From contig CANOVJ010000001.1 in NCBI GenBank assembly GCA_947570615.1, forward strand, positions 1 to 64,000: a stretch of DNA of 64,000 nucleotides. The letters are read 5' to 3'. The notes below the pieces were generated by a model that saw nothing but the letters and a program-made list of their open reading frames with translations, was not told where the DNA came from and searched no databases. The DNA is from an uncultured Lachnospiraceae bacterium (lineage in GTDB: Bacteria; Bacillota; Clostridia; Lachnospirales; Lachnospiraceae). Below are positions 3,692 to 42,699 of this stretch, in pieces. The position numbers and the translations under genes were made by a program. Every line of letters begins with the position of its first letter. The first letter of the stretch is position 1.

Positions 3692-6277
3692 ATGGACTTT
3701 TCATATTTACTACTATTACAGCACATCAGAGAATTAAGCGGCGGTATCTTCAACTCATTTATGCTCAACCTCACATCCCTCGGGACCGCCCTCCTGACGT
3801 ACCTGCTTCTGGCGGCCGTCTACTGGTGTGTGGACAAGCGGTCGGGGCAGCTGATGGCGCTTAATGTTTCATTCGCCTGCACTCTGAACCAGTTTGCCAA
3901 AAATATGTTTAAGACAGAACGACCGTGGATTCGTGATTCGCGAATTGAGCCAGTGCAGGAGGCTCTTTCCGGTGCGGGCGGCTATTCCTTCCCCAGCGGA
4001 CATACCACACGGGCGACGGCAAACTGGGGGGCGCTTGGTTCCTCTCTTTGGAAGCTGGGACAAAAGGCGGTTCCCGTAGTCTGCTGGCTCATCGTTATCT
4101 GTGTCGCGTTTTCTCGAAATTATCTCGGAGTGCATACCGTGAAGGATGTGCTGGCGGCGTTGCTGACGGGGATCGCACTGATTGTACTTCTGGAAAAAGT
4201 GATGGACTGGGTGGAAAAGAAGAAAAATCGTGATTTGCCTGTCCTTGCAGCAGGCTTTATGATCTGCTTTTTGCCCATGCTCAGGGTGGGATGTCTGACC
4301 AATGCCGGAGCCGGAACAGGATTTCTGGCAGGATGGTGGCTGGAGAGGCATTTTGTTAATTTTGAGCCTTCGGCTTCAAAACAGGAAAAATGCATACGCT
4401 TTGCCGTTGGAAGCGCTGGAATTGTGCTTATTTTAACCGTACTTCCGGCGTTGCTGGGGCTGATAATGGAGGCAAAGTACGCTGGCTTTTTCAGTAATTT
4501 TGCGCTGGGCATTTTTATTATGGCGGTTTATCCGTTTTTTTTCTGCAAAAGGGAGCGATATAAAGCCGGCGCTCTCACGCTGGTGGTTTTGCTGACCGGT
4601 ATCGGGGTGGCCGGTATCTGGCTGACGAGTCGGCTTTCCGAAACGGAAAATATGGTCGATTTTGAGAGTGGGACACAGGTTCAGACATCAGATGAAGGAA
4701 TTGAAAGTCCGGAAGTGGCAGGTACGGGAACGGACAATCGGGAACAGGAGGAGGCCGGGTTCTGGCTTATTGCACACAGGGGTTACTCCTCAGAATTTCC
4801 TGAGAATACCATGTCGGCATTTGCCGGGGCACTTGATATTGGAGTGGATTGCATTGAACTTGATGTGCAGATGACGAAGGATGGAGAGATTGTTGTGTTC
4901 CACGATGATTCTCTGCTTCGGGTGACGGGAGAAGACGGCGCCGTTGCGGATTATACAGGTGAGGAACTCAGACAGATGGATGCCGGAGGCTGGTTTGACG
5001 CTTCTTATCAGGGAGAGAGGATACCGACTTTGAAGGAAGCTCTTGATTTTCTGGAGCCTTCCGGGTGTCAGGTCTATCTGGAGCTGAAAGATATTGGCGA
5101 GACAGACGGTTTTGAGGAGGCGGTTCTTTCCGTGGCCAGACAGTGTGGTATGACGGAGCGATGTATTTTCGCGTCGTTCCAGTACCGTTATCTGTCGCAT
5201 CTGAAAGGGATTGATTCAGGACTTAAAACATTGTATAATACTACATCTGCAAGCGCGCTGTTGCCGGAGGAATTTCCGGCGGATTATTATGGTCTTTATG
5301 TGGAAACGCTCACCTCGGAGACGGTAAAAGCGATTCACAGCGCGGGGGGAAAGGCGTTTGTGTGGACGGTTGATACGCCTGAGCAGTTAAGAAATGTTCA
5401 GGCGATGGGGGCGGATGGAGCGGTGACGAATGAGCCGGGCCTGATGAAGGTGGCCGGCTATCCCGAATATGAATATCTGGTCAGTCATTATGAAAGCTCT
5501 GTCACGCTGCCGGGGCTCTATGAAGCGGGGCTTCCCGGGAAGTGTGAGGATATGGTGGTACAGGGACTTACCCGCGCGGGGACGATGCTGGTAGTATCCG
5601 CCTATAGCAGATCGGGGGCGTATGACAGCATTCTGTATGTGATGGACGCGGGAGGAAAGCTGATACAGATCGTCGATCTCGGCTTTAAGGCGCATACCGG
5701 AGGTGTGGCTTATGACGGGAAGAATGATCTGCTCTGGATCACAGGGGCGGAAGGGCAGGTATATGCGCTCAGGTGGTCAGATATTGCGGCGGGAGCCTAT
5801 AAGGGGGAAATTCTGGTAAGCTTTGACGCGCTGCTGGTGAACCATGCGGGAAGTAAAGTGGCTTCCTTCCTCAATCTGTTTGAGGGGGAGCTGTTCGTGG
5901 GATCTTATGTTAACGGGGCGCAGGGTGTATTGAAACGGTACGATATTTCAGACGTCACGGAGCCCAGGCTTAAATCTGCTGTGGCGATACCGGAACGGAT
6001 TCAGGGAATCACGTTTAAAAGGGACGTCTCAGAAAATAAGTGCTATATGCTGTTGAGCCAGGGCTATCAGACGCAGGATTCCCATTTGCTCCAATTTGTT
6101 TATAAGGAAGAACAGATGGAGTATCTGGAGCCTGTCACTGTAAATACCCTGCCTGAGGGAGTGGAGCAGATCCAGATGACGGCGAGCGGGATGTATATCC
6201 TGTTTGAGTCGGCGGCAAGGCCGTATCGGGCAACAGCAAGAATACCCAATGATCAGATCTGGCTGGTGAGAGAGTAG
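3692..6277 (+). CDS. PAP2 phosphatase / glycerophosphodiester phosphodiesterase fusion with C-terminal propeller-like domain
   Basis: Three units lie in one 861-residue chain. Residues 1-165 are a PAP2 membrane phosphatase with all three motifs: K70-x6-R77-P78, P101-S-G-H104 and S141-R142-x5-H148. Residues 165-312 add further helices. Residues 355-590 are a GDPD domain with H362-R363-G, E389 and D391, H404 and E464-x-K466. Residues 590-861 are a soluble region with repeated beta-rich units (HTGGVAYDGKNDLLWI, FEGELFVGSYV, MLLSQGYQ) that look propeller-like; I do not recognise a named family. PAP2 enzymes dephosphorylate lipid phosphates or pyrophosphates, and GDPDs hydrolyse glycerophosphodiesters. 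Both active sites probably face outward. A role in recycling teichoic-acid-like or lipid-linked intermediates is inference. Confidence 0.85.
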   Translation: MDFSYLLLLQHIRELSGGIFNSFMLNLTSLGTALLTYLLLAAVYWCVDKRSGQLMALNVSFACTLNQFAKNMFKTERPWIRDSRIEPVQEALSGAGGYSFPSGHTTRATANWGALGSSLWKLGQKAVPVVCWLIVICVAFSRNYLGVHTVKDVLAALLTGIALIVLLEKVMDWVEKKKNRDLPVLAAGFMICFLPMLRVGCLTNAGAGTGFLAGWWLERHFVNFEPSASKQEKCIRFAVGSAGIVLILTVLPALLGLIMEAKYAGFFSNFALGIFIMAVYPFFFCKRERYKAGALTLVVLLTGIGVAGIWLTSRLSETENMVDFESGTQVQTSDEGIESPEVAGTGTDNREQEEAGFWLIAHRGYSSEFPENTMSAFAGALDIGVDCIELDVQMTKDGEIVVFHDDSLLRVTGEDGAVADYTGEELRQMDAGGWFDASYQGERIPTLKEALDFLEPSGCQVYLELKDIGETDGFEEAVLSVARQCGMTERCIFASFQYRYLSHLKGIDSGLKTLYNTTSASALLPEEFPADYYGLYVETLTSETVKAIHSAGGKAFVWTVDTPEQLRNVQAMGADGAVTNEPGLMKVAGYPEYEYLVSHYESSVTLPGLYEAGLPGKCEDMVVQGLTRAGTMLVVSAYSRSGAYDSILYVMDAGGKLIQIVDLGFKAHTGGVAYDGKNDLLWITGAEGQVYALRWSDIAAGAYKGEILVSFDALLVNHAGSKVASFLNLFEGELFVGSYVNGAQGVLKRYDISDVTEPRLKSAVAIPERIQGITFKRDVSENKCYMLLSQGYQTQDSHLLQFVYKEEQMEYLEPVTVNTLPEGVEQIQMTASGMYILFESAARPYRATARIPNDQIWLVRE

Positions 6278-15837: not shown

Positions 15838-17172
15838 ATGCACAGCGGAAAGAAAATGATAATAATGTCATTAAAATCAATAGGAAAAGTGCTGGCAGTT
15901 TTGCTGACCGGTATCATTTCAGGATTTCTGATCCTGTGTTTTGTACATCTTCTGCCTGTGGAGAGAATGCACAAAAATGTTCTTGCATCTAAAGATATTC
16001 TGAATTCCCATGCGCAGATCATTCCGGGGTATCTGAGCACAGAGGTGGATAACTATACTGACAGTATCATGCTGAATGAGGCAATTTGCCCGATCGATGC
16101 GCCAATAACAGATAAGGTGGTCAACAATTATCAGGTTAATTATTTCAGAGGATATTCCCAGCAGGAGAATTTGCTGAGATATCTGAATGGCGAGGCGGGA
16201 TATGATTATCAGGGATACAGTCACTACTGGGGCGGGCACCAGGTTTCTCTGAAATTATTACTGCTCCTCTTTGATTACGCTGATATTTTAGTAATTAATC
16301 TGTTTTTGCAGGCGATGCTCATGGCGCTGATCATTGCAGGCTTATGCAGAGCGGGAAGGCAGTATTTTGTTGTCCCTTTTTGCATTGCCGTTCTCTCAAT
16401 GATGCCCATGACTATTTCATTATGCCTTCAATTTTGCGATGTTTTCTATATTGCATTGCTGGGAAGCGCAGTTATTATCTGGAAATCAGAATGTATTGAA
16501 AGTAAAAGAATGTATTTCCTGTTTCTTTTACTGGGAATGATGACAAGCTATTTTGACTTTCTTACCTATCCGTTTGTCAGTCTCGGGTTTCCACTGGTGA
16601 CCGGACTTGTATTTCTGGATGATAAGGGGACTCTGAGTCAGGTATATGCAGTGATAAAAAACAGTATGGCCTGGTGTATTGGCTATGCTGGCCAGTGGAT
16701 CGGGAAGTGGGTACTTGGAAGCATTCTTTCTCCACAATCAGGTTCTATGACGGAGGCAATCAGTTCAATCCGATACAGAGGGTCAAATGTAGCACAGGGA
16801 ATAACGATTAATACATTTGACGTATTACTGAAAAATATGTTTGTCTATCTCAGATGGCCTGTTATTCTGATGGTGGGAATGGCAGTCTGTGTTTTTATGA
16901 TGGTAAGTATACGAAGAAAGAAAACGAAAGCAGCAAATATACAGAGGTGTATTCCGTATATAGTTGTCAGTATGTATCCGATCGTATGGTATACGATCAC
17001 AAAAAACCATTCCTATGAGCATTCTTTCATGGCGTATAGAGAGCTTGCAATTTCAACGCTGGCAGGGCTTGGGATGCTGTCTCAACTGGCATATGGAAGA
17101 AATGGGGCAGAAAAAGGGAATATGGATGAAATGCTTCAACAAGAAAGTAAACAGGAGGTCAGAACAAAATGA
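15838..17172 (+). CDS. Multi-spanning membrane protein of unknown function
   Basis: This 444-residue protein has one N-terminal helix, a large outer loop (residues 45-135: STEVDNYTDSIMLNEAI, YRGYSQQEN-like, HYWGGHQVSLKLLL), then about eight helices. Recognisable family-type blocks are GYSHYWGGHQ, MTSYFDFLTYP and TKNHSYEHSFMAYRELA near the end. I cannot name the family. The large loop before the helical bundle and the neighbourhood suggest a surface-glycan role, perhaps a polymerase or GT-C transferase. It starts at an ATG 18 bases after the preceding gene and overlaps the ugd start by four bases (ATGA), so it is co-translated with ugd. Confidence 0.65.
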   Translation: MHSGKKMIIMSLKSIGKVLAVLLTGIISGFLILCFVHLLPVERMHKNVLASKDILNSHAQIIPGYLSTEVDNYTDSIMLNEAICPIDAPITDKVVNNYQVNYFRGYSQQENLLRYLNGEAGYDYQGYSHYWGGHQVSLKLLLLLFDYADILVINLFLQAMLMALIIAGLCRAGRQYFVVPFCIAVLSMMPMTISLCLQFCDVFYIALLGSAVIIWKSECIESKRMYFLFLLLGMMTSYFDFLTYPFVSLGFPLVTGLVFLDDKGTLSQVYAVIKNSMAWCIGYAGQWIGKWVLGSILSPQSGSMTEAISSIRYRGSNVAQGITINTFDVLLKNMFVYLRWPVILMVGMAVCVFMMVSIRRKKTKAANIQRCIPYIVVSMYPIVWYTITKNHSYEHSFMAYRELAISTLAGLGMLSQLAYGRNGAEKGNMDEMLQQESKQEVRTK

Positions 17173-18485
17173 TGAAAATCGCAGTTGCAGGAACCGGATA
17201 CGTAGGCCTGGTGGCGGGCGTATGCTTTGCGGAAAAGGGCTATCAGGTCATGTGTGTGGACATCGACGAGAAAAAGGTGGAAATGATGCGTCAGGGGATC
17301 TCTCCCATCTATGAGGAGGGGCTGGAGGAGCTGATGCAAAAAAATAATGCCCGGGGGACTCTGCATTTCACCACGGACTATGTGGAGGCGTACCGGGACG
17401 CAGACGCGATCTTTATTGGTGTTGGAACGCCTGAGATGCCCGACGGCAGCGCTAATTTAAGCTATATCGCCACGGTTTCCAGGCAGATTGCGGAGACAGT
17501 GGAAAAGGACTGTCTGGTGGTGGTGAAATCCACCGTCCCGGTTGGGACAAACGACAAGGTGGAGCAGTTCATCCGGGACTTTCTGGTGCATGACGTGAAA
17601 GTGGAAGTGGCCTCCAACCCGGAATTTCTTGCCCAGGGAACGGCGGTGCATGACACCCTCCACGCGGCGAGAATTATCATCGGAACACAGAGCAGGGAGG
17701 CGGAGGAAACCCTGAAAAGGATCTACGAGCCCTTCGGGCTGCCCATCGTCTCTGTAAAGCGCCGCTCCGCGGAGATGATCAAATACGCCTGCAATGATTT
17801 TCTGGCGCTGAAGATTTCCTATATGAACGATATCGCCAACCTGTGCGAGCTGGTGGGGGCGGATATCACCGACGTTGCCAGGGGGATGAGCTATGACGAG
17901 CGGATCGGGGCGCGTTTTCTGAATGCGGGAATCGGGTTTGGGGGAAGCTGTTTTCCCAAGGACACCAAAGCCCTGAAATTCCTTGCCAGGGAGCACGGAT
18001 ACCAGCTGAAGACGGTGGAGGCCTGTGTGGATGTGAACAGCGCCCAGAAGACCCGGCTTTTTGAGAAGGCCAGAGAGCGGATGATCACCTTCAGCGGTCT
18101 GAAGGCGGCGGTGCTGGGGCTCACCTTTAAGTCTGGTACGGACGATCTGCGGGAGGCACCCTCCATTGACAATTTAAAACTTCTGCTGGCAGCAGGAGCC
18201 AGTGTATACGCCTTTGATCCCAAAGGCCAGGAACGGGCAAAAGAGCTCTTCCCGCAGGGGAAGCATCCGGGGGGCGGAACGATGAATTACGTCTCATCTG
18301 CCACCGAAGCCCTTGAGGGAGCCCATATCTGCTTTGTATTCACGGAATGGCCGCAAATCAGAGAGGTCGCGCCCGGGACGTTTAAAGAAAAAATGCACAC
18401 TCCGCTGGTCTACGACGGACGTAATCTCTATCAGCCCGCGCAGATGAAAGCGGCAGGGGTGGAGTATTACAGCATCGGACGCTAG
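17169..18485 (+). CDS. ugd: UDP-glucose 6-dehydrogenase
   Basis: This 438-residue enzyme oxidises UDP-glucose to UDP-glucuronate with two NAD+. The N-terminal NAD site is AVAGTGYVGLVAG; the catalytic cysteine is C261 in GFGGSCFPKDTKAL; the C-terminal domain has GLTFKSGTDDLREAPS. The GDP-mannose dehydrogenase branch is less likely because the protein has the full UGDH pattern and a UDP-glucuronate 4-epimerase gene is close by. The start at 17169 has AGGAGG nine bases upstream and overlaps the previous gene by four bases. The 3' end overlaps the minus-strand GT2 gene by four bases. Confidence 0.93.
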   Translation: MMKIAVAGTGYVGLVAGVCFAEKGYQVMCVDIDEKKVEMMRQGISPIYEEGLEELMQKNNARGTLHFTTDYVEAYRDADAIFIGVGTPEMPDGSANLSYIATVSRQIAETVEKDCLVVVKSTVPVGTNDKVEQFIRDFLVHDVKVEVASNPEFLAQGTAVHDTLHAARIIIGTQSREAEETLKRIYEPFGLPIVSVKRRSAEMIKYACNDFLALKISYMNDIANLCELVGADITDVARGMSYDERIGARFLNAGIGFGGSCFPKDTKALKFLAREHGYQLKTVEACVDVNSAQKTRLFEKARERMITFSGLKAAVLGLTFKSGTDDLREAPSIDNLKLLLAAGASVYAFDPKGQERAKELFPQGKHPGGGTMNYVSSATEALEGAHICFVFTEWPQIREVAPGTFKEKMHTPLVYDGRNLYQPAQMKAAGVEYYSIGR

Positions 18486-19518: not shown

Positions 19519-20517
19519 ATGAATCCATTGGATCCGTCCAAAAAATATTTTATCACAGGAAGCGCCGGCTTTATCGGATTTTATCTGGCCAGGGCGTTGC
19601 TTAAGCGGGGCGCTCAGGTGATCGGGATCGACAACCTGAACGATTACTACGAGGTTTCCCTGAAGGAAGCGCGTCTTGACATACTCAGGCAGTATGAGCG
19701 GTTTACCTTTATAAAGGGGGATCTGGCGGATAAAGAGACGCTGACCCGGATTTTCGAAAGGGAGCGGCCCCAGGTGGCGGTGAATCTGGCCGCGCAGGCC
19801 GGGGTGAGGTACAGCATCGACAATCCTGACGCCTATATCCAGTCCAATATTGTGGGTTTTTTCCACATTCTGGAGTGTTGCCGGCATTTCCCGGTGGAGC
19901 ATCTGGTGTACGCCTCCTCCAGTTCCGTCTACGGCGGGAATGAGAAGGTGCCCTTTTCCGTGGAGGATCAGGTGGATCATCCTGAGAGTCTCTATGCGGC
20001 CACCAAGAAGTCCAATGAGCTGATGGCATACGCCTACAGTAAGCTGTACCGGATCCCTCTGACCGGGCTTCGGTTCTTTACCGTGTACGGCCCCATGGGA
20101 AGGCCCGATATGGCATATTTTAAGTTCGCCCGGAAAATTATGGCGGACGAGCCTATTCAGATTTATAATAACGGGGATATGCTCCGGGACTATACCTACA
20201 TCGACGATATCATCGCTGGGGTCCTGGCCATTCTCTGCAATCCGCCGGCGGTGGATGAGAAGGGGGCGGCGTATAAGCTCTATAATATCGGAAACCATCA
20301 TCCCGTGAAGCTGATGGACTTTATCAGCGTGCTGGAGAAGGTTTTCGGAAAAGAGGCCAGGAAGGAGTTTCTTCCCATGCAGAAGGGGGACGTCTACCAG
20401 ACGTACGCGGATGTCACCGGCCTGATGGAGGATTTCGGGTTTAAGCCGGATACCTCCGTGGAGGAGGGGCTTGCCAGGTTTGGGGAGTGGTTTGGGGAGT
20501 ATTATAATTGCAGATAA
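19519..20517 (+). CDS. UDP-glucuronate 4-epimerase
   Basis: This 332-residue extended SDR enzyme has ITGSAGFIGFYLARALL for NAD, the DNLNDYYEVSLKEARL block diagnostic for UDP-GlcA 4-epimerases (LpsL/CapI type), SSSSVYGG and the catalytic Y-x3-K in SLYAATKKS. GLRFFTVYGPMGRPDMA is also typical. It converts UDP-glucuronate from Ugd to UDP-galacturonate. The ATG at 19519 is seven bases after AAGGAGG, so the frame's upstream extension to 19501 is not used. With ugd it supplies uronic acids for the surface glycan. Confidence 0.92.
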   Translation: MNPLDPSKKYFITGSAGFIGFYLARALLKRGAQVIGIDNLNDYYEVSLKEARLDILRQYERFTFIKGDLADKETLTRIFERERPQVAVNLAAQAGVRYSIDNPDAYIQSNIVGFFHILECCRHFPVEHLVYASSSSVYGGNEKVPFSVEDQVDHPESLYAATKKSNELMAYAYSKLYRIPLTGLRFFTVYGPMGRPDMAYFKFARKIMADEPIQIYNNGDMLRDYTYIDDIIAGVLAILCNPPAVDEKGAAYKLYNIGNHHPVKLMDFISVLEKVFGKEARKEFLPMQKGDVYQTYADVTGLMEDFGFKPDTSVEEGLARFGEWFGEYYNCR

Positions 20518-20537: not shown

Positions 20538-22919
20538 ATGAAATTCTGGTATAAGAGCTCTTTACTGATACTGACGGGTATTCTGATTATTCTGATCTAC
20601 AAAATGTATTCACTGGATTCCCGCCATATTGTGATCAATGAGATTTGCAGCAATAATTTTTCATTGTTCACAGACGAGGAAGGTATTTATTCGGATTATG
20701 TTGAATTGTATAATGCAGGTTCCGCAGAAATCCGGCTGGACGGTTATTATTTATCGGATGATGAAAATTATCTGCTGAAATATCCGCTGGATTCCGTCAC
20801 AATACCGCCCCAGGGGTATTATGTTGTCTGGCTTGACGGGATGGATGATCCATCAATGGGACGGACCGGCTTTAAGATTTCGCGCCGGGGAGATAACGTT
20901 TTCCTGAGCAATAAAAGATGGGATATCATTGATTCGGTGGCGGTTCCGGAGCTTTCCTATAATACCGTTTATGCAAGAATATCGGATGGGGGAAACGACT
21001 GGGGGATTATGACCGCAACCGCAGGAGGTTCAAATGCGCAGGCCGGGGTGATGGCTTCCGTAGAGCTGGAAGATCTTGTTTTCAGTGCAGAGAGTGGATT
21101 TTATGACGAGCCGTTTCGACTGGAAATCACGGCCGGCGGAGATGAGGATATTTATTATACCCTGGATGGAAGCGATCCTGTTGTGGGAACCAATTTGTAT
21201 CAGGGGCCGATTGAGGTAAAAGACGCCAGCGATCAGGAGAATGTATATGCGGCAAGGACAGATTTATCTCCCACGAGAAATTATACGCCGCCCTTTAAGG
21301 TGGATAAAGCGACCATTGTACGGGCTGTCAGCCATGACAGGGAAAAGGGCGTTGTCAGCAGGATTGTGTCGAAGGTTTATTTTGTGGGATATGGTCAGAG
21401 GGAAGAATACCTGGAACTGCCTGTACTCTCCCTTGTAACGGATCCTTCCAATCTCTTTGACAGGGAGAGCGGGATTTATGGAAATGGGGTGGCGTTGGAG
21501 CAGTATAAAGCTGATGGCGGCGTAGAGGACGGGAAGCTGCTGGAATCCTTTGTCGATGCAGATGGAGACACACGTCAGCTTTATATGGCGTCAAATGCCT
21601 TTAATGACGGTAAGGAATGGGAGAGAGAGGCTGCGCTCACGTGCTTTGACAAAAATCATGAATATAGTTTCACACAGAATGTAGGGATTCGAATAGCAGG
21701 ACAGTCTACCCGGTCAAGAATCCAGAAGTCACTGCGGATTTACGGAAGAAGCATTTATGATCAGACAGAGGTTTTTCCATACGAGTTTTTCCCGGGATGC
21801 TCATACTCTACAATAAAGCTGCGGAATGGAGGAAACAATAATGAGACTGTTATGATTACGGACGCCTTTCTGGAGAAAATGGCGGAAGGCAGGAATGTTT
21901 CGATACAGGACTCAACGCCATGCGTTCTTTTTCTGAATGGCGAATACTGGGGAATCTACAATATCAGGGAACGCTATGGAGAAGAATATCTGTCAAACCA
22001 TTTTGGGGTAAACGAGGATAACGTGTGGATTATCGACAGTGAAGCGGCGAAGGCCGGCGGCGGCGAAGCCTGGGAGGCTTACGATAGCATGCTGAATCTG
22101 GTGATGGAGTGCGATCTGGCTTATGATGATGTCTATGAGATGCTGGACGGCTTCATAGATATGCAGAGCCTGATCGATTATTGCTGCATAAATTTATACG
22201 TGAATAACAGAGATATTGCTTTGGGAACGAATACGGCGTTATGGAGGACTGCAGAGCCGGAGGAATCGGTATATGGGGACTGCAGGTGGAGATGGATGCT
22301 GTATGACATGGATATCAGCCTGTTTCATGATGAAAATGTCCCGATAACATGGATGGAGGATTACCCCCTTCTGAATGAACCTGTAATCGAAAAGCTTATG
22401 ATAAACGGGCGTTTCAGGCGGGAGTTCTGTCTTACCTTTATGGATATTGCCAATACGGTCTATGCGTACGATACGGTTCATGAGAGACTGCTGGAATGGG
22501 AGAAAATCTATGAGGCCCAGGTGGTCAAAACCCAGAGACGCTTCTGGGACGAAGGCTTTACGACAGAGGAATTCGGCGGCTATATAGCAGAAATGGACGA
22601 GTTTTTCAACAATCGCTTTTCTTTTGCGATGGCCAGTCTGGCCGATTACTTTGAATTGAGCGGTGGGCTCGAGACGATCTGTATCAGAAACAGTCTGCCT
22701 GAAGGAGGAAGCGTCAGGATCAATACGGCCTTGCTCAGAGATAACGAGTGGAGTGGACGGTATTTTACGGATTATCCGGTGACAGTGACGGCGATCCCGC
22801 AGGAAGGATATCGATTTGCCGGATGGAAGGGGGATATCACGGGGCAAAACGAACAGACGGAGGTAAATATCCCGGCAGGGGGGATTACGATTGAAGCGAT
22901 ATTTGAAAGGGTGGAGTGA
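20538..22919 (+). CDS. Membrane-anchored CotH kinase with lamin-tail and InlB-type repeat domains
   Basis: The 793-residue protein has an N-terminal signal anchor (LLILTGILIILIY). Next comes a lamin-tail domain (about 30-150: INEICSNNFS, DYVELYNAGS, GDNVFLSN), a chitobiase C-terminal-like domain (about 175-285: YYTLDGSDPVVGTNLYQGP), a CotH domain (about 290-670: IRIAGQSTRSRIQKSLRI, YWGIYNIRERY, YDMDISLFHD with the DxD pair at 590/592) and a C-terminal bacterial repeat (PVTVTAIPQEGYRFAGWKGD). CotH proteins in Bacillus are atypical protein kinases acting on spore-coat proteins; here the enzyme would work outside the cell on an unknown substrate. The ATG at 20538 follows GGAGAG. It heads a module with the next three genes. 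Confidence 0.9.
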   Translation: MKFWYKSSLLILTGILIILIYKMYSLDSRHIVINEICSNNFSLFTDEEGIYSDYVELYNAGSAEIRLDGYYLSDDENYLLKYPLDSVTIPPQGYYVVWLDGMDDPSMGRTGFKISRRGDNVFLSNKRWDIIDSVAVPELSYNTVYARISDGGNDWGIMTATAGGSNAQAGVMASVELEDLVFSAESGFYDEPFRLEITAGGDEDIYYTLDGSDPVVGTNLYQGPIEVKDASDQENVYAARTDLSPTRNYTPPFKVDKATIVRAVSHDREKGVVSRIVSKVYFVGYGQREEYLELPVLSLVTDPSNLFDRESGIYGNGVALEQYKADGGVEDGKLLESFVDADGDTRQLYMASNAFNDGKEWEREAALTCFDKNHEYSFTQNVGIRIAGQSTRSRIQKSLRIYGRSIYDQTEVFPYEFFPGCSYSTIKLRNGGNNNETVMITDAFLEKMAEGRNVSIQDSTPCVLFLNGEYWGIYNIRERYGEEYLSNHFGVNEDNVWIIDSEAAKAGGGEAWEAYDSMLNLVMECDLAYDDVYEMLDGFIDMQSLIDYCCINLYVNNRDIALGTNTALWRTAEPEESVYGDCRWRWMLYDMDISLFHDENVPITWMEDYPLLNEPVIEKLMINGRFRREFCLTFMDIANTVYAYDTVHERLLEWEKIYEAQVVKTQRRFWDEGFTTEEFGGYIAEMDEFFNNRFSFAMASLADYFELSGGLETICIRNSLPEGGSVRINTALLRDNEWSGRYFTDYPVTVTAIPQEGYRFAGWKGDITGQNEQTEVNIPAGGITIEAIFERVE

Positions 22920-22938
22920 GAAAGGGGAAAGGATACGG

Positions 22939-23835
22939 ATGAAAGCAGGCGCAGGAAGGAAAGTGGTTTTGCTCACGGGGGTTGTCTGTGGTACAATACT
23001 GCTGGCAGGATGCGGCGCGTTTCTGGAGATGCCGGTGGGGGACACGCAGGCGCAGAGTCCGGAGCGTACAACCGTAAAGGAGGCCGGCTGGTATGAAATA
23101 ACGGACAGGGATCTGGATACGTTGGAATATAATGTGACGGAAATCGATCTGGAATCTCCCGGGGAGGATGAGAATGGAAGGTACTCTTACAGGGACGGGG
23201 TGCTTTCAGTATCTGCCGGGGGCGATTACGCGCTGAAAGGGAAATTGAGCGGTGGGAGACTTGTAGTTAATGTCTTTGAGGACGAGATCGTGCATTTCAT
23301 TTTGGACAACGTGGAAATCAGGTCTGACAGCGGAGCCGCTATCTGCGTGGAAAAGGCTCAAAAAGTTATAATAACCGCGAAGGAAGGTACGGAGAATGTA
23401 CTGACCGACGGTCCAAAACATGACACGGGAGATAAGGCATGTGTTTTCAGTGATTCGGATCTCACAGTCAATGGAGCCGGCAGCCTGGCAATATACGGCT
23501 ATCATGGGGATGGGATACGCTCCAGAGATCAGGTAAAGATTATGGGAGCGCATCTCTATGTCAAGGCAAAGGGGGACGGCATCAGGGGGAATGATGGAGT
23601 TATCCTCACGGACAGTGCGGTAGAGATAGAATGTGAAGGCAATGGTCTTATGGCTGACAGTGAAAAGGATATGGTGGTAATTGAGAGAGGAAGCTGTAAG
23701 GTGATTGCAGGAAAAAATGCAATTACAGCCAGAAAATATGTCGCTGTCCGTGACAGTCAGACGGATTTATATTCTGTCTGGGAGTCGATAAAATGTGACG
23801 GTATCATAGAACCTGAAGCAGAAGCCGCAGAATAG
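22939..23835 (+). CDS. Lipoprotein with PF14262 (Cthe_2159-type) carbohydrate-binding beta-helix
   Basis: The 298-residue precursor has a lipobox LLAGC with C25 as the lipidated residue. From about residue 80 it has short repeating units (YALKGKLSGG, IHFILDNVEIRS-like, GDKACVFSDSDLTVNGAG, GYHGDGIRSRDQVKI, AKGDGIRGNDGVIL) that match the DUF4353/PF14262 pattern. A Clostridium thermocellum member of that family binds acidic polysaccharides such as polygalacturonate. The ATG at 22939 is behind GGGGAAAGG; it starts 19 bases after the CotH gene. In many genomes this domain occurs beside CotH, VTC and DUF4956 genes, as here. Its glycan ligand is unknown; galacturonate-containing glycans are an option since UDP-GalA is made nearby. 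Confidence 0.82.
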   Translation: MKAGAGRKVVLLTGVVCGTILLAGCGAFLEMPVGDTQAQSPERTTVKEAGWYEITDRDLDTLEYNVTEIDLESPGEDENGRYSYRDGVLSVSAGGDYALKGKLSGGRLVVNVFEDEIVHFILDNVEIRSDSGAAICVEKAQKVIITAKEGTENVLTDGPKHDTGDKACVFSDSDLTVNGAGSLAIYGYHGDGIRSRDQVKIMGAHLYVKAKGDGIRGNDGVILTDSAVEIECEGNGLMADSEKDMVVIERGSCKVIAGKNAITARKYVAVRDSQTDLYSVWESIKCDGIIEPEAEAAE

Positions 23836-23865
23836 GCAGAGGGAAATTATACCTGGGGGGATGGG

Positions 23866-24585
23866 ATGCTAAAAGAAGCTGGTTTGGAGAAGTACAGACA
23901 CGAATATAAATATATCATCGACAGAATGCAGGAGGCTGTTCTTAAAACGCGGATCAGGCCGTTGCTGAAGGCGGACAGCCATGCCGGTAAGGAGGGATGC
24001 TATCAGGTCAGGAGTCTGTACTTTGACTCGCTGTATGACAGCTGTTATTATGAGAACGAAAGCGGGACAGGAGTCAGGGACAAGTATCGGATCAGAATAT
24101 ATAATGGCAATACAGAGCGTATCTCTCTGGAAAAAAAAAGTAAAAACCGGCAGATGACTCTGAAAAAAGGATGTACGATTGATGAGAGCATTTGCAGACA
24201 GCTGATGCAGGGAAAGCCGGTACGGCTTACGCCGGATCTTGATTCTGATCAGAGAATGCTTCTGGAAGAAATGCAGCGGATGGCTTTGCGTCCGGCAGTG
24301 ATTGTAGAATACCTGCGTTATCCTTTTACAGAGAAAAGTGGAAATGTCAGAGTCACATTTGACGAAAATATAAGCTCTTCCAATGCAATTTCCGATTTTC
24401 TGCAGGAGAGGATAGCGGTTCGGCCTGTAATGGAAAAGGGAATGTCGGTTCTGGAGGTAAAGTGGGATGAGTTTCTGCCGGACTATATAAAAAAACATAT
24501 TCAGCTCGATACCCTGCAGTGGTGCAGCTACTCAAAATATTATCTGTGCAGAAAATATAATACTTATGGAGGAATAAGAATATGA
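23866..24585 (+). CDS. VTC-domain protein (polyphosphate polymerase-like)
   Basis: This 239-residue stand-alone VTC domain (PF09359) has the tunnel residues of the triphosphate-tunnel fold: HEYKY at 12-16, R75-x-R77 in DKYRIRIY, E89-K-K in SLEKKSKN, R151 in EYLRYPF and E197-x-K199 in VLEVKWDE. In yeast Vtc4 this domain polymerises ATP gamma-phosphate into polyphosphate; bacterial stand-alone members are often called polyphosphate polymerase domain proteins without proof. It has no membrane helix, but the next gene, overlapping by four bases, encodes a membrane protein that could hold it at the membrane. ATG at 23866 follows GGGGGGAT. Confidence 0.88.
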   Translation: MLKEAGLEKYRHEYKYIIDRMQEAVLKTRIRPLLKADSHAGKEGCYQVRSLYFDSLYDSCYYENESGTGVRDKYRIRIYNGNTERISLEKKSKNRQMTLKKGCTIDESICRQLMQGKPVRLTPDLDSDQRMLLEEMQRMALRPAVIVEYLRYPFTEKSGNVRVTFDENISSSNAISDFLQERIAVRPVMEKGMSVLEVKWDEFLPDYIKKHIQLDTLQWCSYSKYYLCRKYNTYGGIRI

Positions 24586-25256
24586 ATTTCAGCGATATTT
24601 TAAAAAAGTCCTTTGTGGAGGGGTATGCGTCGTCTGCTCTCTCCGTAAAATCAATTTTATTGTGTATGGTAATTACGATATTGATCTCCGCCTATATTTT
24701 TATCCTTTACCGGGTGATAAACAGGCAGTCTTTTTATAATAAAAATTTTAATATATCCCTTCCTGCCATGGCGGTGATAACGGCGGCTATTATTCTTACG
24801 ATTCAGTCAAGCATCATTATTTCCCTCGGTATGGTCGGCGCCCTTTCAATTGTGCGTTTCAGAACGGCGATCAAGGATCCTATGGATCTGGTGTTTCTGT
24901 TCTGGTCGATCAGCGTGGGTATTGTATGCGGCGCGGGGTTTGCGGTTATCGCAGTGATTGCCTCCCTGGTGCTGACATGCGGTATCCTTCTGGCGAACTG
25001 GCTTCCCATCGCAAAAGCGCCGCAGATCCTTCTGGTCAATTCCGACAGCTTTGAAAACGAAAAAGAGATAATGGAAATCGTAGGGAAATACTGTTCTCTT
25101 CACAGGGTAAAAGCGAGAAATCTCACAAAGGATCATCTGGATATGGCCATTGAGGTCCGGGTGAAGGAGGAAGCGCAGCTGGTGAAAGAGCTCATGAAGC
25201 TGAAAGCGATTGTTTCAGCTTCGCTGATCGCTCATGATGGAGAGGTGACCTTCTGA
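24582..25256 (+). CDS. DUF4956 membrane protein
   Basis: The 224-residue protein has four helices in residues 20-145, with the family hallmark LGMVGALSIVRFRTAIKDP between helices, then a soluble alpha/beta tail of about 80 residues (DSFENEKEIMEIVGKYC, DLMAIEVRVKEE-like). DUF4956 genes regularly accompany VTC-domain genes in Firmicutes and Bacteroidetes; the function is not known. It is translationally coupled to the VTC gene by an ATGA-type overlap. Its last 25 bases overlap the convergent GT39-like gene. A role as membrane partner or channel for the VTC product is inference. Confidence 0.88.
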   Translation: MNFSDILKKSFVEGYASSALSVKSILLCMVITILISAYIFILYRVINRQSFYNKNFNISLPAMAVITAAIILTIQSSIIISLGMVGALSIVRFRTAIKDPMDLVFLFWSISVGIVCGAGFAVIAVIASLVLTCGILLANWLPIAKAPQILLVNSDSFENEKEIMEIVGKYCSLHRVKARNLTKDHLDMAIEVRVKEEAQLVKELMKLKAIVSASLIAHDGEVTF

Positions 25257-26647
25257 GAAAGGGGCCGTATTTTATAAATATTGATGTGGATATACCCAAA
25301 CTGATACGGTCCGAAGCTTTCGGAACGCAGTCCGGCTTTTTGCACATCCTCCGGGTTAAGATAATTGCCGTTGTCAAAGAACCAGAATTCGGTAAGGTTT
25401 TCTTCCCTGGTAAGGCGCTGCGGGTCAAAGGAGCCGGTATAGTAGAGTTCGGCCTGAGGTATATAATAAAAGGTGCAGTTATAGAGGTAATCATCCCCGC
25501 TGACCAGAACAATTTTATCCCCTTCCAGGATATGTTCCTGTGCAAAGGTAATCGTATCGACTGTATGATCTGTGCGAAGCGTCTCGACACAGGATTTATA
25601 CTGGATGGCACTGATCAGAAAAAATGACAGACAAAGCGGCAGGAGCAGGTATTTTCCGGTATGCCTTATGACCGGACCAATACCGAGAAATAAAAGGAAG
25701 ACGGGCATGATCAGATACCTGCTCAGCATGATGGGCTTGACGACCGCCGCGAAAATGACGCCAAAGGCCGTAATGCCCCAGAGCGCGCTGCAGCAGATAA
25801 ATGACCAGTAGTATGCAACGCCTTTTTTTCGGACGAAAAGGAGAAGAGACGCGGCCGTCGAAACGGCCATGACTGTAAGATAGAGAATTTCTGTCCCGGC
25901 GACGCTGCTGTAAAACAGCTCCTTTAAAGGGGCCAGTCGGGAATCAGGCTCATGGATCCAGCCACCATTGGACTCCCGAATCTGGAAGACCGCGATCAAA
26001 AGAAAGGGAAGGTATATGATTACTGTCGTCAGAGAACAGATCAGCCAGCTCTTCAGTGCCGCTTTATTATGGGTGAAGGCGTACCAGATGAAAAGCCCCA
26101 GATAGAGAAAAACCATGGTAAGCACAGCGTAATAGTGTGTACAGGCCGCCAGAAGGCTGAACAGTGTAAAGCCAACCCACTGTCTGCGCGCAGGCGAGAC
26201 AAGCAGTTTATAGCAGAATATTCCGGCCAGGACGGTAAATGCGCTGGCCCAGACATACATACGGATCTCGGTGGATTTTTGCAGCATAAAGGGGTTTAAA
26301 TACATGATTGCAAGATAAAAGAACATGGCTTTGCGGCCATGATTTTTTTTGATAAAAACGCCGCCGGACCAGAGAAGAATCAGCAGCGCCGCAAGAGAAA
26401 ACAGACGGGCCATGAAAATATTCTGTCCGGTAAGGATTGAAAAAGGGCGGATCATATAATAATAGAGGAAGGGCGAGGTGTCGTGGAGCACTTCATAAAA
26501 AAACTCTGCCCAACTGCAGCGGTTCCAGTGCATGGTATAAAATTCGTCAAAATTGATCGTATAACGGGAACAGGCGGTGACAGACATAACGGTAAAAACC
26601 GTAATCATAAGTATTTCCCAGGGAAATTCGATTATTTTCTTTTTCAT
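25232..26647 (-). CDS. GT39/ArnT-like GT-C glycosyltransferase
   Basis: The 471-residue protein has about ten helices and the first-loop acidic motif NFDEFYTMHWNR near residue 32, followed by HDTSPFLYYYMIRPF, as in lipid-linked-sugar transferases of the PMT/ArnT type. A second positive loop QKSTEIRMYVWAS fits this class. A small soluble C-terminal domain (SGDDYLYNCTFYYIPQAEL) follows the helices. It should transfer a sugar from polyprenyl phosphate at the outer membrane face. The ATG follows GGAGGATTCCCC, and an extended -10 promoter with TATAAT lies just upstream. It converges on the CotH/VTC module. Confidence 0.82.
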   Translation of the reverse strand: MKKKIIEFPWEILMITVFTVMSVTACSRYTINFDEFYTMHWNRCSWAEFFYEVLHDTSPFLYYYMIRPFSILTGQNIFMARLFSLAALLILLWSGGVFIKKNHGRKAMFFYLAIMYLNPFMLQKSTEIRMYVWASAFTVLAGIFCYKLLVSPARRQWVGFTLFSLLAACTHYYAVLTMVFLYLGLFIWYAFTHNKAALKSWLICSLTTVIIYLPFLLIAVFQIRESNGGWIHEPDSRLAPLKELFYSSVAGTEILYLTVMAVSTAASLLLFVRKKGVAYYWSFICCSALWGITAFGVIFAAVVKPIMLSRYLIMPVFLLFLGIGPVIRHTGKYLLLPLCLSFFLISAIQYKSCVETLRTDHTVDTITFAQEHILEGDKIVLVSGDDYLYNCTFYYIPQAELYYTGSFDPQRLTREENLTEFWFFDNGNYLNPEDVQKAGLRSESFGPYQFGYIHINIYKIRPLSQKVTSPS

Positions 26648-39698: not shown

Positions 39699-40000
39699 AT
39701 TCCGCATTATTCTTTAAGGAAAATTTAAAATTTCCTTAATTTAGCAGGGGAAGCCTTTTAAAAGGCTTCCTTTTTGTCTATACTGATATCAGCGATTACG
39801 TTTGCTGGTTTTATGAAATCAGTATAAAAGGCGGCAGAGGGACAGCGCCATTTGCTGCACAGGCCATGCTTTTAAGGAGACGGTTTTTGTATCTCTGAGG
39901 GATATCCCTTTTGAGATGGAAATTCCGCTTCCGTGAAAAGACAGGCGGCATAAAAAGTACGTGACGACAACTGAAAAATGAATAAGCAGGAGTGGATTTT
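39699..40000. other. 302-base intergenic gap with terminator and palindromes
   Basis: Besides the terminator at 39749-39775, the gap holds TTAAGGAAA/TTTCCTTAA (39714-39739) just before it. TATACTGAT (39779-39787) and ATCAGTATA (39818-39826) form an inverted repeat that could be a regulator site. GGGATATCCC lies near 39900. I found no small gene and no promoter I trust. Confidence 0.5.
39749..39775 (+). terminator. Rho-independent terminator
   Basis: GGAAGCCTTTT and AAAAGGCTTCC form a perfect stem at 39749-39770, followed by five T. It closes the long operon that starts at 29717. Confidence 0.9.
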
Positions 40001-41512
40001 ATGTTTGTGTCAATGATGTTCCCGGTTTTTCTGGGGATTACGGTCACAGTGTTTTTTGTGTTACCTGTAAAATGGCGTCCGGCGGTTTTGCTTTCTGCCA
40101 GCGGCTTTTTCTGCGCCTGGGCGGATGTGAGGGCCCTGGCGGTGCTCGCGCTGGTCTGTGTGTGTACCTGGAGAGCCGGCCTGATCATCGAAGGACGGCA
40201 GAAAAAAGCGTGCGGGGAGCGGAAAAGGGAAAACGGAGAAGAGAAAAGGAAGAAAACGGACAGGCCGGGCAGGGTCTGCCTGGTTGTGACGGTGTGTCTC
40301 GAGCTCCTTGCGCTGTGCGGGTATAAGTATGTGCCTTACCTGTGCGGGCGGTTCGGATGGACACAGCGCCTTCCCCAGGGGATTGTGGAGAGCCTGGCGA
40401 TGCCGGTGGGATTGTCTTTCTATGTCTTTCAGTCTATCGGCTATCTTGTGGACGCCTACAGAGGAAAAAACGCCGCAGAAAAAAGCGGCGTTGAAAAAAG
40501 CAACGTTGAAAAAAGCTTTATCCATGTGGCCTGTTATCTGGCGTATTTTCCCAGGCTGGTGAGCGGGCCCATTGAGCGGGCGCAGGATTTTCTGCCGCAG
40601 CTTAAGGGTCTGAAGGATGTCAGATTTTTTGACAGAGGAAGACTTTCCACGGCGTTCACCTATATGCTGTGGGGCTATTTTATGAAGATGGTGGTAGCGG
40701 ACCGGCTGGCGGTGACGGTGAACCAGATTTTCCAGTCGGCCAGTGTATTCGACAGCTTCTGGCTTTTTATGGGCATGATTTTTTATACCATACAGATCTA
40801 CTGTGATTTTGCAGGATATTCCTATATCGCCATCGGATGCAGCTGGATTTTCGGGATCAGGCTGCCCCAAAATTTCAGGGCTCCTTACTGTGCGGACAGT
40901 ATCACGGATTTCTGGCGGCGCTGGCATGTCTCCCTGAGCTTTTGGCTGCGGGACTATCTCTATATTCCCCTGGGAGGAAACAGGAGAGGATTTGCCCGAA
41001 AGTGTGTCAATACCATGATCGTGTTTCTGGTGTGCGGAATGTGGCACGGCGCGGGGATTCATTTCCTGGCCTGGGGGCTTTTGCATGGGCTGTATTCGGT
41101 CGTGGAGGCGGCATGGAGAAGGAAAGGCCGGCAGATAAAGGGGGGAAGACCGCTCACCTTTCTGGCGGTTGCCTTCGCGTGGATTTTTTTCCGTGCGGAC
41201 AGCCTGGGTGAGGCGCTCCGCTATGTGGCGGGGATGCTTACGGCGGGCGTTCATCCGCAAATGTGGGGACAGTATATGGAGCTGCTGGGACTGAGCGCGG
41301 TGGAATTTGCGGTGATCCTGACGGGAATTCTGGTGATCCTGCTGGCGGATGAGCTTTGTAATAAAAGAAAGCTTCATCTGCCAACTCTGGTGCAGCGCCG
41401 GGAAAATGCGGGGAGATATCTGGTTTTTTACATGCTGATTGTGGCAATTTTTATTTTTGGCATGTACGGGCCGGGTTATCACGCGGAGCAGTTCATTTAT
41501 ATGCAGTTTTAA
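40001..41512 (+). CDS. MBOAT family O-acyltransferase (AlgI/DltB-like)
   Basis: This 503-residue membrane protein has about eleven helices. The MBOAT hallmarks are SITDFWRRWHVSLSFWLRDY (H309) and CGMWHGAGIHFLAWGLLHG with the catalytic H349. It would pass an acyl group across the membrane to an extracellular partner. The ATG at 40001 has AGGAG upstream; a GTG nine bases earlier is less likely. It is followed 29 bases later by an SGNH-like gene, as in DltB/DltD and AlgI/AlgJ pairs. A cytoplasmic loop (about 155-173) holds three five-residue EKS repeats encoded by hairpin-forming DNA at 40471-40516, which may be a small insertion. Confidence 0.9.
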   Translation: MFVSMMFPVFLGITVTVFFVLPVKWRPAVLLSASGFFCAWADVRALAVLALVCVCTWRAGLIIEGRQKKACGERKRENGEEKRKKTDRPGRVCLVVTVCLELLALCGYKYVPYLCGRFGWTQRLPQGIVESLAMPVGLSFYVFQSIGYLVDAYRGKNAAEKSGVEKSNVEKSFIHVACYLAYFPRLVSGPIERAQDFLPQLKGLKDVRFFDRGRLSTAFTYMLWGYFMKMVVADRLAVTVNQIFQSASVFDSFWLFMGMIFYTIQIYCDFAGYSYIAIGCSWIFGIRLPQNFRAPYCADSITDFWRRWHVSLSFWLRDYLYIPLGGNRRGFARKCVNTMIVFLVCGMWHGAGIHFLAWGLLHGLYSVVEAAWRRKGRQIKGGRPLTFLAVAFAWIFFRADSLGEALRYVAGMLTAGVHPQMWGQYMELLGLSAVEFAVILTGILVILLADELCNKRKLHLPTLVQRRENAGRYLVFYMLIVAIFIFGMYGPGYHAEQFIYMQF

Positions 41513-41541
41513 AGGGATCGGCGCGGCACAGGGAGAGCGTT

Positions 41542-42699
41542 ATGAGGGAAAGAAAGAAAAAATCATGGATAAAACAGCTTACAAGGGTGGGCTTTCTCCT
41601 TCTTCTTGGAGTGACCATCTATTTTGTGACAAATGTACTGCGGATCAAATCGGAGCATGGGATTAATCAGCAGGCGGGGCTGTACTGGCAGAGAGGGGAT
41701 TCTATCGATGTGGCGGCGATGGGAACGAGCCATGTTCACTGCGGCGTCAATACGGGACTTTTGTGGGAAAAATATGGGATCGCGGCCTACGATTACAGCG
41801 GCGCGGAGCAGCCTTTGTGGATGACCTGGTATTATATGCGGGAGCTGTATAAGTATCAGACGCCCAAAATGATCCTGCTGGATCTGTATGCGCCGGCCAG
41901 GTTTAAGGAGGATTACCAGTACGACTGGATATCGGAAAATATCTATGGGATGCGTTTTTCCCTGAACAAGCTGCGGATGCTCTCCGTCAGCGTAGAACCC
42001 TCCCGGCTGCATCAGTATTTTCCCTCCTTTGCGGTATATCACAGCAGATACGATGAACTGGAGGAGGAGGATTTCAATCATTTTTTCTGGGACAGTCAGG
42101 AGAAGGAGGCGTTTAAGGGCTTTACGCCTTACTGGAAAAGGACGCCCCAGCATCGGCCGGAGATTTCCGAGGAGGAAAGGGACGGACTGAGCGCCAAGTC
42201 GGAGAAATATTTAAGAAAAATCATCGCCCTTGCCAGGGAAAAGGGGACAGAGCTGGTTTTGATCGTGGTTCCCTATGTGGAGACCAACCAGGACAGGCGA
42301 ACCTACAACCAAATCATGGATATCGCCGCCCGGGAGGGCGTTACTTTTATCGATTACAACGAGTATTACGATGAGATGGGGATAGACTTTCAGGAGGATT
42401 TTAACGACGAGTCCCATCTGAACTACTGGGGAAGCTGTAAGTTTACGGATTTTCTGGGAGAATTTCTGGCCTCCCATGACGAGATACCCGACAGAAGAGG
42501 GCAGGAAGGGTATGAATCCTGGGAGGAAAACGCCAGAATAATCCGCCGGGAGGCGGTTGATCATGGAGAGGGGCTCCTTAACAGTTCCCCACAAACACAT
42601 ACTTCAGATATTTCCCGGCAGCTTCCGCCAGGCGGTATACCTGTGCCGTCTCCGTTGCCGCCCGGTCTCTCATCCGATACTGCGGAAAAAAGCGGGTAA
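41542..42699 (+). CDS. SGNH/AlgJ-like partner of the MBOAT, with run-on C-terminus
   Basis: The 385-residue protein has one N-terminal helix (VGFLLLLGVTIYFVTNVL) and an outer SGNH-like domain with S63 in AAMGTSHVHCGV and D289-x2-H292 in NDESHLNYWG, the likely triad. It would receive acyl groups from the MBOAT and put them on the glycan. The last 40 residues (about 346-385) are encoded by DNA opposite the 3' end of the minus-strand amrS gene and do not look like a family C-terminus; the normal end is probably near residue 340-350. The original stop may have been lost. Expression is presumably with the MBOAT gene. Confidence 0.8.
   Translation: MRERKKKSWIKQLTRVGFLLLLGVTIYFVTNVLRIKSEHGINQQAGLYWQRGDSIDVAAMGTSHVHCGVNTGLLWEKYGIAAYDYSGAEQPLWMTWYYMRELYKYQTPKMILLDLYAPARFKEDYQYDWISENIYGMRFSLNKLRMLSVSVEPSRLHQYFPSFAVYHSRYDELEEEDFNHFFWDSQEKEAFKGFTPYWKRTPQHRPEISEEERDGLSAKSEKYLRKIIALAREKGTELVLIVVPYVETNQDRRTYNQIMDIAAREGVTFIDYNEYYDEMGIDFQEDFNDESHLNYWGSCKFTDFLGEFLASHDEIPDRRGQEGYESWEENARIIRREAVDHGEGLLNSSPQTHTSDISRQLPPGGIPVPSPLPPGLSSDTAEKSG

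Follow-up and report, generated by a model that had tools for sequence, protein, structure and literature searches.

A conserved VTC-DUF4956 gene pair with CotH and PF14262 neighbors as a candidate polyphosphate polymerase and translocase in Lachnospiraceae

The stretch of DNA analyzed here (the window; 64,000 nucleotides from an uncultured Lachnospiraceae bacterium, contig CANOVJ010000001.1) carries four genes in a row on the forward strand that encode a CotH kinase, a PF14262 lipoprotein, a VTC-domain protein, and a DUF4956 membrane protein (Table 1). The PF14262 gene starts 19 bases past the CotH stop codon, the VTC gene starts 30 bases past PF14262, and the junction of VTC and DUF4956 is an ATGA overlap. 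An earlier reading made from the letters of this DNA (the sequence-only reading) had described the same four genes, spacings, and overlap, all of which we confirmed, with each family scoring above its Pfam cut-off. Comparison across genomes shows that VTC and DUF4956 form a tight unit, with CotH as a frequent, exchangeable client and PF14262 as an optional one. We propose that this unit may be a bacterial polyphosphate polymerase and translocase with exchangeable surface clients, the likeliest of the readings considered, to which we assign a probability of about one half.

Table 1. Positions of the four-gene run, its upstream context, and the parts of the CotH protein. Nucleotide positions are those of the window; aa, amino acids of the CotH protein.
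Feature	Position	Strand	Evidence or remark
UDP-glucose/GDP-mannose dehydrogenase gene, upstream context	17169-18485	+	Pfam UDPG_MGDP_dh domains
NAD-dependent sugar-nucleotide epimerase/dehydratase gene	19519-20517	+	Pfam Epimerase and GDP_Man_Dehyd
CotH gene	20538-22919	+	Pfam CotH (PF08757) 98.4 bits, cut-off 23.8
CotH protein, hydrophobic segment	aa 8-26
CotH protein, LTD	aa 28-135
CotH protein, Fn3_assoc/CHB_HEX_C_1	aa 185-281
CotH kinase domain	21687-22619 (aa 384-694)	+	D559 and D590 align with catalytic Asp pair
Codon of K397	21726-21728	+	conserved Lys
Codon of D559	22212-22214	+
Codon of D590	22305-22307	+
CotH protein, Flg_new_2	aa 742-792
PF14262 (Cthe_2159) lipoprotein gene	22939-23835	+	Pfam 167.1 bits, cut-off 25.8
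VTC gene (VTC-domain triphosphate-tunnel protein, putative polyphosphate polymerase)	23866-24585	+	Pfam PF09359 126.6 bits, cut-off 23; no signal or membrane segment
DUF4956 gene	24582-25256	+	Pfam 48.5 bits, cut-off 30.6

Co-occurrence across genomes, which the sequence-only reading had asked for, was surveyed in a sample of 101 genomes drawn from the phylum, the window's own genome included, at E values up to 1e-5, and proved strong. VTC was present in 11 of the 101 genomes and DUF4956 in exactly those 11, with no genome carrying only one of the two. CotH was found in 10 genomes, 9 of them among the 11 with VTC, and PF14262 in 9 genomes, 7 of them among the same 11. Hypergeometric P values against VTC, which ignore phylogeny, were 6e-15 for DUF4956, 2.6e-10 for CotH, and 6e-7 for PF14262; the association of these genes is far beyond chance. 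DUF4956 lay less than 1 kb from 16 of the 17 VTC genes in the survey, and the remaining VTC gene (genome G062) and its DUF4956 sit near the starts of different contigs. CotH lay less than 3 kb from 9 of the 17. Among 14 control genomes, VTC and DUF4956 were found in the same three, those of Bacteroides ihuae, Corynebacterium glutamicum, and Methanosarcina acetivorans. CotH also occurs without VTC, in genome G072 and in the Bacillus subtilis control, which counts against a dependence of CotH on VTC. At three places (the first pair of G022, and in G066 and G069; coordinates read by eye) a VTC-DUF4956 pair that lacks a nearby CotH has PF14262 at a distance of 0.4-0.6 kb, as if CotH and PF14262 were able to replace each other.

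The window's own genome holds six genes of each family, VTC and DUF4956, and at all six places one VTC is paired with one DUF4956 (6/6). CotH adjoins four of these pairs, with one CotH copy broken, and two further CotH genes stand without VTC in the fetched stretches of 14-18 kb. At one locus of this genome (L023:15920-17338, contig C2), CotH is split into two open reading frames (ORFs) by an internal TAG, and the neighboring VTC and DUF4956 are open. The window's contig holds, at about 87 kb, a second VTC-DUF4956 pair without CotH (L024:11104-12568); the genes upstream of this pair fall into the GT2, sugar phosphotransferase, and LCP neighbor groups. At another locus (L026:6179-11451, contig C75), what appear by eye to be a response regulator and a sensor kinase directly precede VTC-DUF4956-CotH, an arrangement that suggests regulated expression.

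A wider set of loci, the best 80 of 571 relatives in a scan of the GTDB collection, holds 87 VTC genes. DUF4956 lies on the same strand less than 2.5 kb from 84 of them, with a gap below 0.2 kb in 82 of those, and the three VTC genes without DUF4956 lie near contig ends. CotH is less than 3 kb from at least 72 of the 87, a lower bound because our own CotH profile missed some (for example at L079), and PF14262 is near 16. The gene order is CotH-VTC-DUF4956 in 45 cases and CotH-PF14262-VTC-DUF4956 in 14. By our own profiles, another 14 of the 87 VTC genes have DUF4956 without a same-strand CotH or PF14262; among these, L079 has CotH by Pfam and L092 has CotH on the opposite strand. Within the single module of four genes that the sequence-only reading had drawn, VTC-DUF4956 is the tight unit, CotH is exchangeable, and PF14262 is optional. 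Distances of VTC and DUF4956 correlate at 0.71 (83 pairs), and those of VTC and CotH weakly, at 0.25 (64 pairs), to which poor alignment may contribute. Arrangements vary at individual loci: L100:253-7282 has two CotH-VTC-DUF4956 sets, tail to tail, and at L076:16398-19613 the order is VTC-CotH-DUF4956, with CotH splitting the usually adjacent pair. The only long VTC ORF, of 439 aa at L100, overlaps a CotH ORF, and its extra length seems to be an upstream extension.

The VTC protein of the window is 239 aa long, and PF09359 (positions 2-230 of 235) is its sole Pfam domain. By a simple hydropathy scan, which underlies all hydrophobic and membrane segments reported here, an N-terminal hydrophobic segment is present in none of the 87 VTC proteins of 221-259 aa, and one has a segment elsewhere. 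The window protein alone reached yeast Vtc4 at E 0.44, and a profile of 82 bacterial VTC sequences (the window's and 81 of the 87 locus ORFs, six outside 223-256 aa being left out) reached it at E 9.9e-9. Window R11, K15, R75, R77, K91, K100, R151, and R162 align with what we take to be Vtc4 R196, K200, R264, R266, K281, K294, R361, and R373, a numbering whose offset fits all letters. E197 and K199 align with E426 and K428 in a second alignment segment, which has a negative score and is colinear only. All ten aligned tunnel residues are invariant in 82/82 VTC proteins, and the six VTC proteins of the own genome, aligned separately, keep the same ten. For yeast VTC, a complex carrying Vtc4 R264A/R266A/E426N has served as the impaired version (PMC9911596; this and the other papers cited by PMC number are drawn on through excerpts of their text).

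A very unlikely alternative is that VTC is a CYTH-type tripolyphosphate or nucleotide hydrolase and that the cluster consists of co-traveling glycan-locus genes. As this would lead one to expect, nine of the 82 VTC sequences hit CYTH as well when E values up to 1 are allowed (best 0.00085), and E13, one of the Glu residues of the hydrolases, is retained. Tunnel hydrolases build their second metal site from the Glu residues of ExExK and ExE (PMC4641920). Bacterial VTC proteins have RxExK and ExK at these places (82/82; the register was inferred from the motifs), with R11 and K199 replacing two of the three second-metal-site Glu in every sequence. Basic residues in place of two of the three Glu are as expected for a polymerase, with the third Glu (E13) kept as in hydrolases; the replacement sets these proteins apart from the CYTH controls: a script found ExExK in 5 of 6 CYTH control loci (L126 went unmatched), and the same five show ExE, as AEVEF, when read by eye, since the ExE pattern found none. 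The occurrence of VTC-DUF4956 pairing in different phyla also argues against the hydrolase alternative. PPK1 is present in the own genome, where VTC would therefore not stand alone as a polyphosphate enzyme. A role for VTC as a replacement of PPK1 was considered and rejected, as PPK1 occurs in 6 of the 11 VTC genomes (own included) versus 11 of the 90 others.

DUF4956 is predicted to have three membrane segments in 45 of 81 proteins, the window copy among them, and four in 36. In an alignment of 78 sequences (the window's and 77 of 85 locus ORFs after a length filter), R92, R94, K98, D102, and W108 are invariant (78/78), and the three basic residues fall in the motif RFR-x-A-x-K-x-x-x-D. By analogy, this motif may be likened to the basic TM1 residues that line the polyphosphate channel of yeast VTC (PMC9911596). 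With an E limit of 1, the MgtC model picks up all 78 sequences (best 7.2e-6), and the window copy falls below the Pfam MgtC cut-off (16.3 bits vs 31.4). An hhalign comparison with 14 MgtC proteins (from 14 of 15 loci, L119 being left out for a wrongly picked ORF) gave 95.7% over 135 columns that cover the C-terminal domain and the membrane core; a VTC control gave 0.1%. By sequence, DUF4956 is a distant MgtC relative.

MgtC acts on ATP synthase and on phosphate uptake. The MgtC matches and the hhalign result are also what would be seen if VTC were a tunnel protein that senses ATP or phosphate and DUF4956 were an MgtC-like membrane regulator, the two jointly controlling glycan export or ATP/phosphate balance with no polymer exported. 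We consider this regulatory alternative rather unlikely, as the catalytic residues, among them the counterparts of R264, R266, and E426, are kept in 82/82 VTC proteins, which a protein that only senses would not require.

Window CotH alone matched no chain in the PDB at E up to 1, and a profile of 11 CotH domains, the window's included, reached Bacillus CotH (5jd9) at E 3.1e-21. Through this structure, the catalytic Asp pair of B. subtilis CotH, D228 and D251 (PMC7821199), corresponds to window D559 and D590, which are conserved in 81 and 82 of 83 CotH ORFs, respectively; K397 is conserved in 73 and E478 in 71. Of the three outcomes that would have spoken against the sequence-only reading, none was seen: co-occurrence is strong, the alignable tunnel residues are kept in VTC, and so are the catalytic residues in CotH. 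Of the 83 CotH ORFs longer than 450 aa, 80 carry a hydrophobic segment at the N-terminus; two of the remaining three are cut by contig edges, and one has the segment slightly later. Two to four hydrophobic segments occur in 27 of the 83, where topology is less clear. All 18 PF14262 proteins have an N-terminal hydrophobic segment, and the window's, scanned from 22936 (one codon early), has a lipobox, LLAGC, and covers Pfam positions 2-201 of 262. These predicted compartments, with export-type segments in CotH and PF14262, none in VTC, and a membrane location for DUF4956, fit the earlier interpretation, which is supported in part. The founder of PF14262 binds cellulose and polygalacturonic acid (PMC6712302). 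We rejected the idea of a uronic-acid glycan made with the epimerase upstream of CotH and bound by PF14262: the epimerase has a match in only 4 of 16 other VTC-linked PF14262 loci, at 23-25% identity, and two of the match-less loci begin at a contig edge that falls within CotH or a short way from it.

The tight pairing, the conserved tunnel residues, the conserved CotH catalytic residues, and the predicted compartments support the polymerase-translocase reading. Under it, VTC and DUF4956 would work as a single two-protein machine, in which the cytosolic tunnel enzyme VTC polymerizes phosphate from ATP and the MgtC-like DUF4956 either conducts the growing chain across the membrane or acts as its gate. 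The machine would work like yeast VTC, where a tunnel domain is coupled to a membrane channel, with a different membrane part. Its product would reach surface clients encoded alongside, mostly a membrane-anchored CotH kinase and sometimes a PF14262 glycan-binding lipoprotein; at the window locus, both would be clients. We infer polymerization and export, together with whatever use CotH may make of the product.

Several points weigh against this reading. The 80 loci lean to close relatives: Lachnospiraceae and other Clostridia make up most of them, and there are three Treponema records and one from Bacteroidales. At L091 no DUF4956 was found, though 1.26 kb follows VTC, and no natural VTC-DUF4956 fusion was found among 93 VTC ORFs scanned. 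The window VTC protein has no SPX or membrane domain by Pfam and the hydropathy scan. The match to E426 and K428 rests on the negative-scoring segment, Vtc4 K458 is not covered by the alignment, and E13 is a hydrolase Glu kept in 82/82, again with the register to hydrolases inferred from motifs. The basic motif of the window DUF4956 is flanked by predicted segments at 62-80 and 120-138, and from this position its basic residues might not be part of a pore lining. Finally, we know of no MgtC relatives that act as exporters.

A more specific version of the mechanism seems to us unlikely. In it, VTC and the MgtC-like channel would secrete polyphosphate, CotH would take the phosphoryl group from the polymer, and PF14262 would hold the acceptor glycan. 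Under that version, itself unlikely in the same measure, the pair would be a widespread bacterial and archaeal two-gene unit for ATP-independent extracellular phosphorylation of proteins or glycans. A precedent for polyphosphate as donor is the polyphosphate-dependent NAD kinase, described notably in Gram-positive bacteria (PMC8553519).

The genes around the VTC loci bear on a further alternative. The commonest neighbor groups are glycosyltransferases (GT2), sugar phosphotransferase, LytR-CpsA-Psr, and GtrA; Wzt and MBOAT are seen at fewer loci. At L043 the cassette is followed by a polysaccharide deacetylase. Some VTC pairs lack a nearby CotH or PF14262, and the CotH/VTC/DUF4956 trio adjoins Pel genes in streptococci, clostridia, and bifidobacteria (PMC7112168). 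These observations are consistent with exported polyphosphate serving in its own right as a polymer of the surface or matrix, for example by bridging cationic glycans like Pel or as a wall phosphate store, in which case CotH would modify surface proteins with an unrelated donor or serve as a scaffold. This alternative, too, appears rather unlikely: the commonest neighbor group is found in 20 of 84 clustered loci (a lower bound, as only close homologs were counted), and PelG occurs in 2 of the 101 genomes, one of which (G029) has no VTC. The same PelG counts led us to reject a Pel accessory role as a general explanation.

Glycan genes also surround the run in the window, with GT2, a UDP-sugar dehydrogenase, and GT87 around it and an aminotransferase, more GT2, DUF6056, and MBOAT (all by Pfam) farther away. 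The epimerase lies on the same strand and ends 20 bases before the CotH start, because of which it may be the first gene of the transcript, and the run could be five genes. Its best PDB match is 5u4q (E 5.5e-117), followed by the 6zl6/6zla group (E 4e-56), and no NCBIfam cut-off was reached among the matches listed. On the other side, a convergent gene (25232-26647, minus strand) overlaps the 3' end of the run, and one terminator-like site (plus strand, 25320-25335) lies directly 3' of DUF4956. The window has 16 promoter-like sites vs 11.4 (sd 3.4) in shuffles and 12 terminator-like sites vs 6.2 (sd 2.3), and no known RNA elements at the gathering threshold. Elsewhere in the window, an 861-aa protein with PAP2 phosphatase and glycerophosphodiester phosphodiesterase domains (3692-6277) adjoins a GT87 glycosyltransferase, and an MBOAT O-acyltransferase comes before a protein whose GDSL match is below the cut-off (39992-42699), the two resembling a glycan O-acetylation pair.

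The conserved unit combines a polymerase-type tunnel enzyme with its residues intact and a predicted place in the cytosol, an intermediate membrane protein, and a predicted extracellular kinase with intact catalytic residues, so that the question of how bacterial kinases outside the cell are supplied with a phosphoryl donor becomes testable with few genes. If the polymerase-translocase reading is true, the pair would add a membrane-coupled bacterial route to polyphosphate beside PPK, and it would give DUF4956 a role and MgtC-like proteins a new setting.

A joint function of CotH, VTC, and DUF4956 is not established in the excerpts of open-licence PMC literature consulted, and earlier work elsewhere is possible. 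The CotH/polyphosphate-polymerase/DUF4956 trio has already been noted beside Pel loci, in an accessory set that places the same three families side by side, sometimes with DUF4832, and it was suggested that CotH might regulate Pel by phosphorylation (PMC7112168). The window run differs in including PF14262, between CotH and VTC, and in its distance from pel genes: no Pel families were found among 30 window ORFs scanned with Pfam, so that the run is not contiguous with pel genes, and the PelG gene of the own genome is on another contig (C25:24737-26107), where none of the six VTC genes was found. In NELoc-2 of Clostridium perfringens, VTC and CotH genes occur together (PMC2879425, PMC11677781), and membrane proteins of 222-226 aa called 'tubulin/FtsZ' adjoin VTC (PMC2879425); from their size and position, these are probably DUF4956. 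NELoc-2 differs in having two VTC copies split by a resolvase, and the excerpted account does not name PF14262 (PMC2879425).

The individual proteins also have known counterparts. Window CotH shares its kinase domain and catalytic Asp pair with the Bacillus CotH spore-coat kinase, and differs in adding an N-terminal export-type segment, LTD, other domains, and the linkage to VTC-DUF4956. DUF4956 aligns with MgtC/SapB proteins over the membrane core and C-terminal domain, and differs in its own invariant motif and in staying below the MgtC cut-off. The window VTC protein differs from the yeast VTC complex in lacking an SPX or membrane domain and in having a separate MgtC-like protein as its putative membrane part. 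It resembles that complex in belonging to the same tunnel-enzyme family, in the ten invariant aligned residues, and in the predicted placement of a cytosolic enzyme beside a membrane component.

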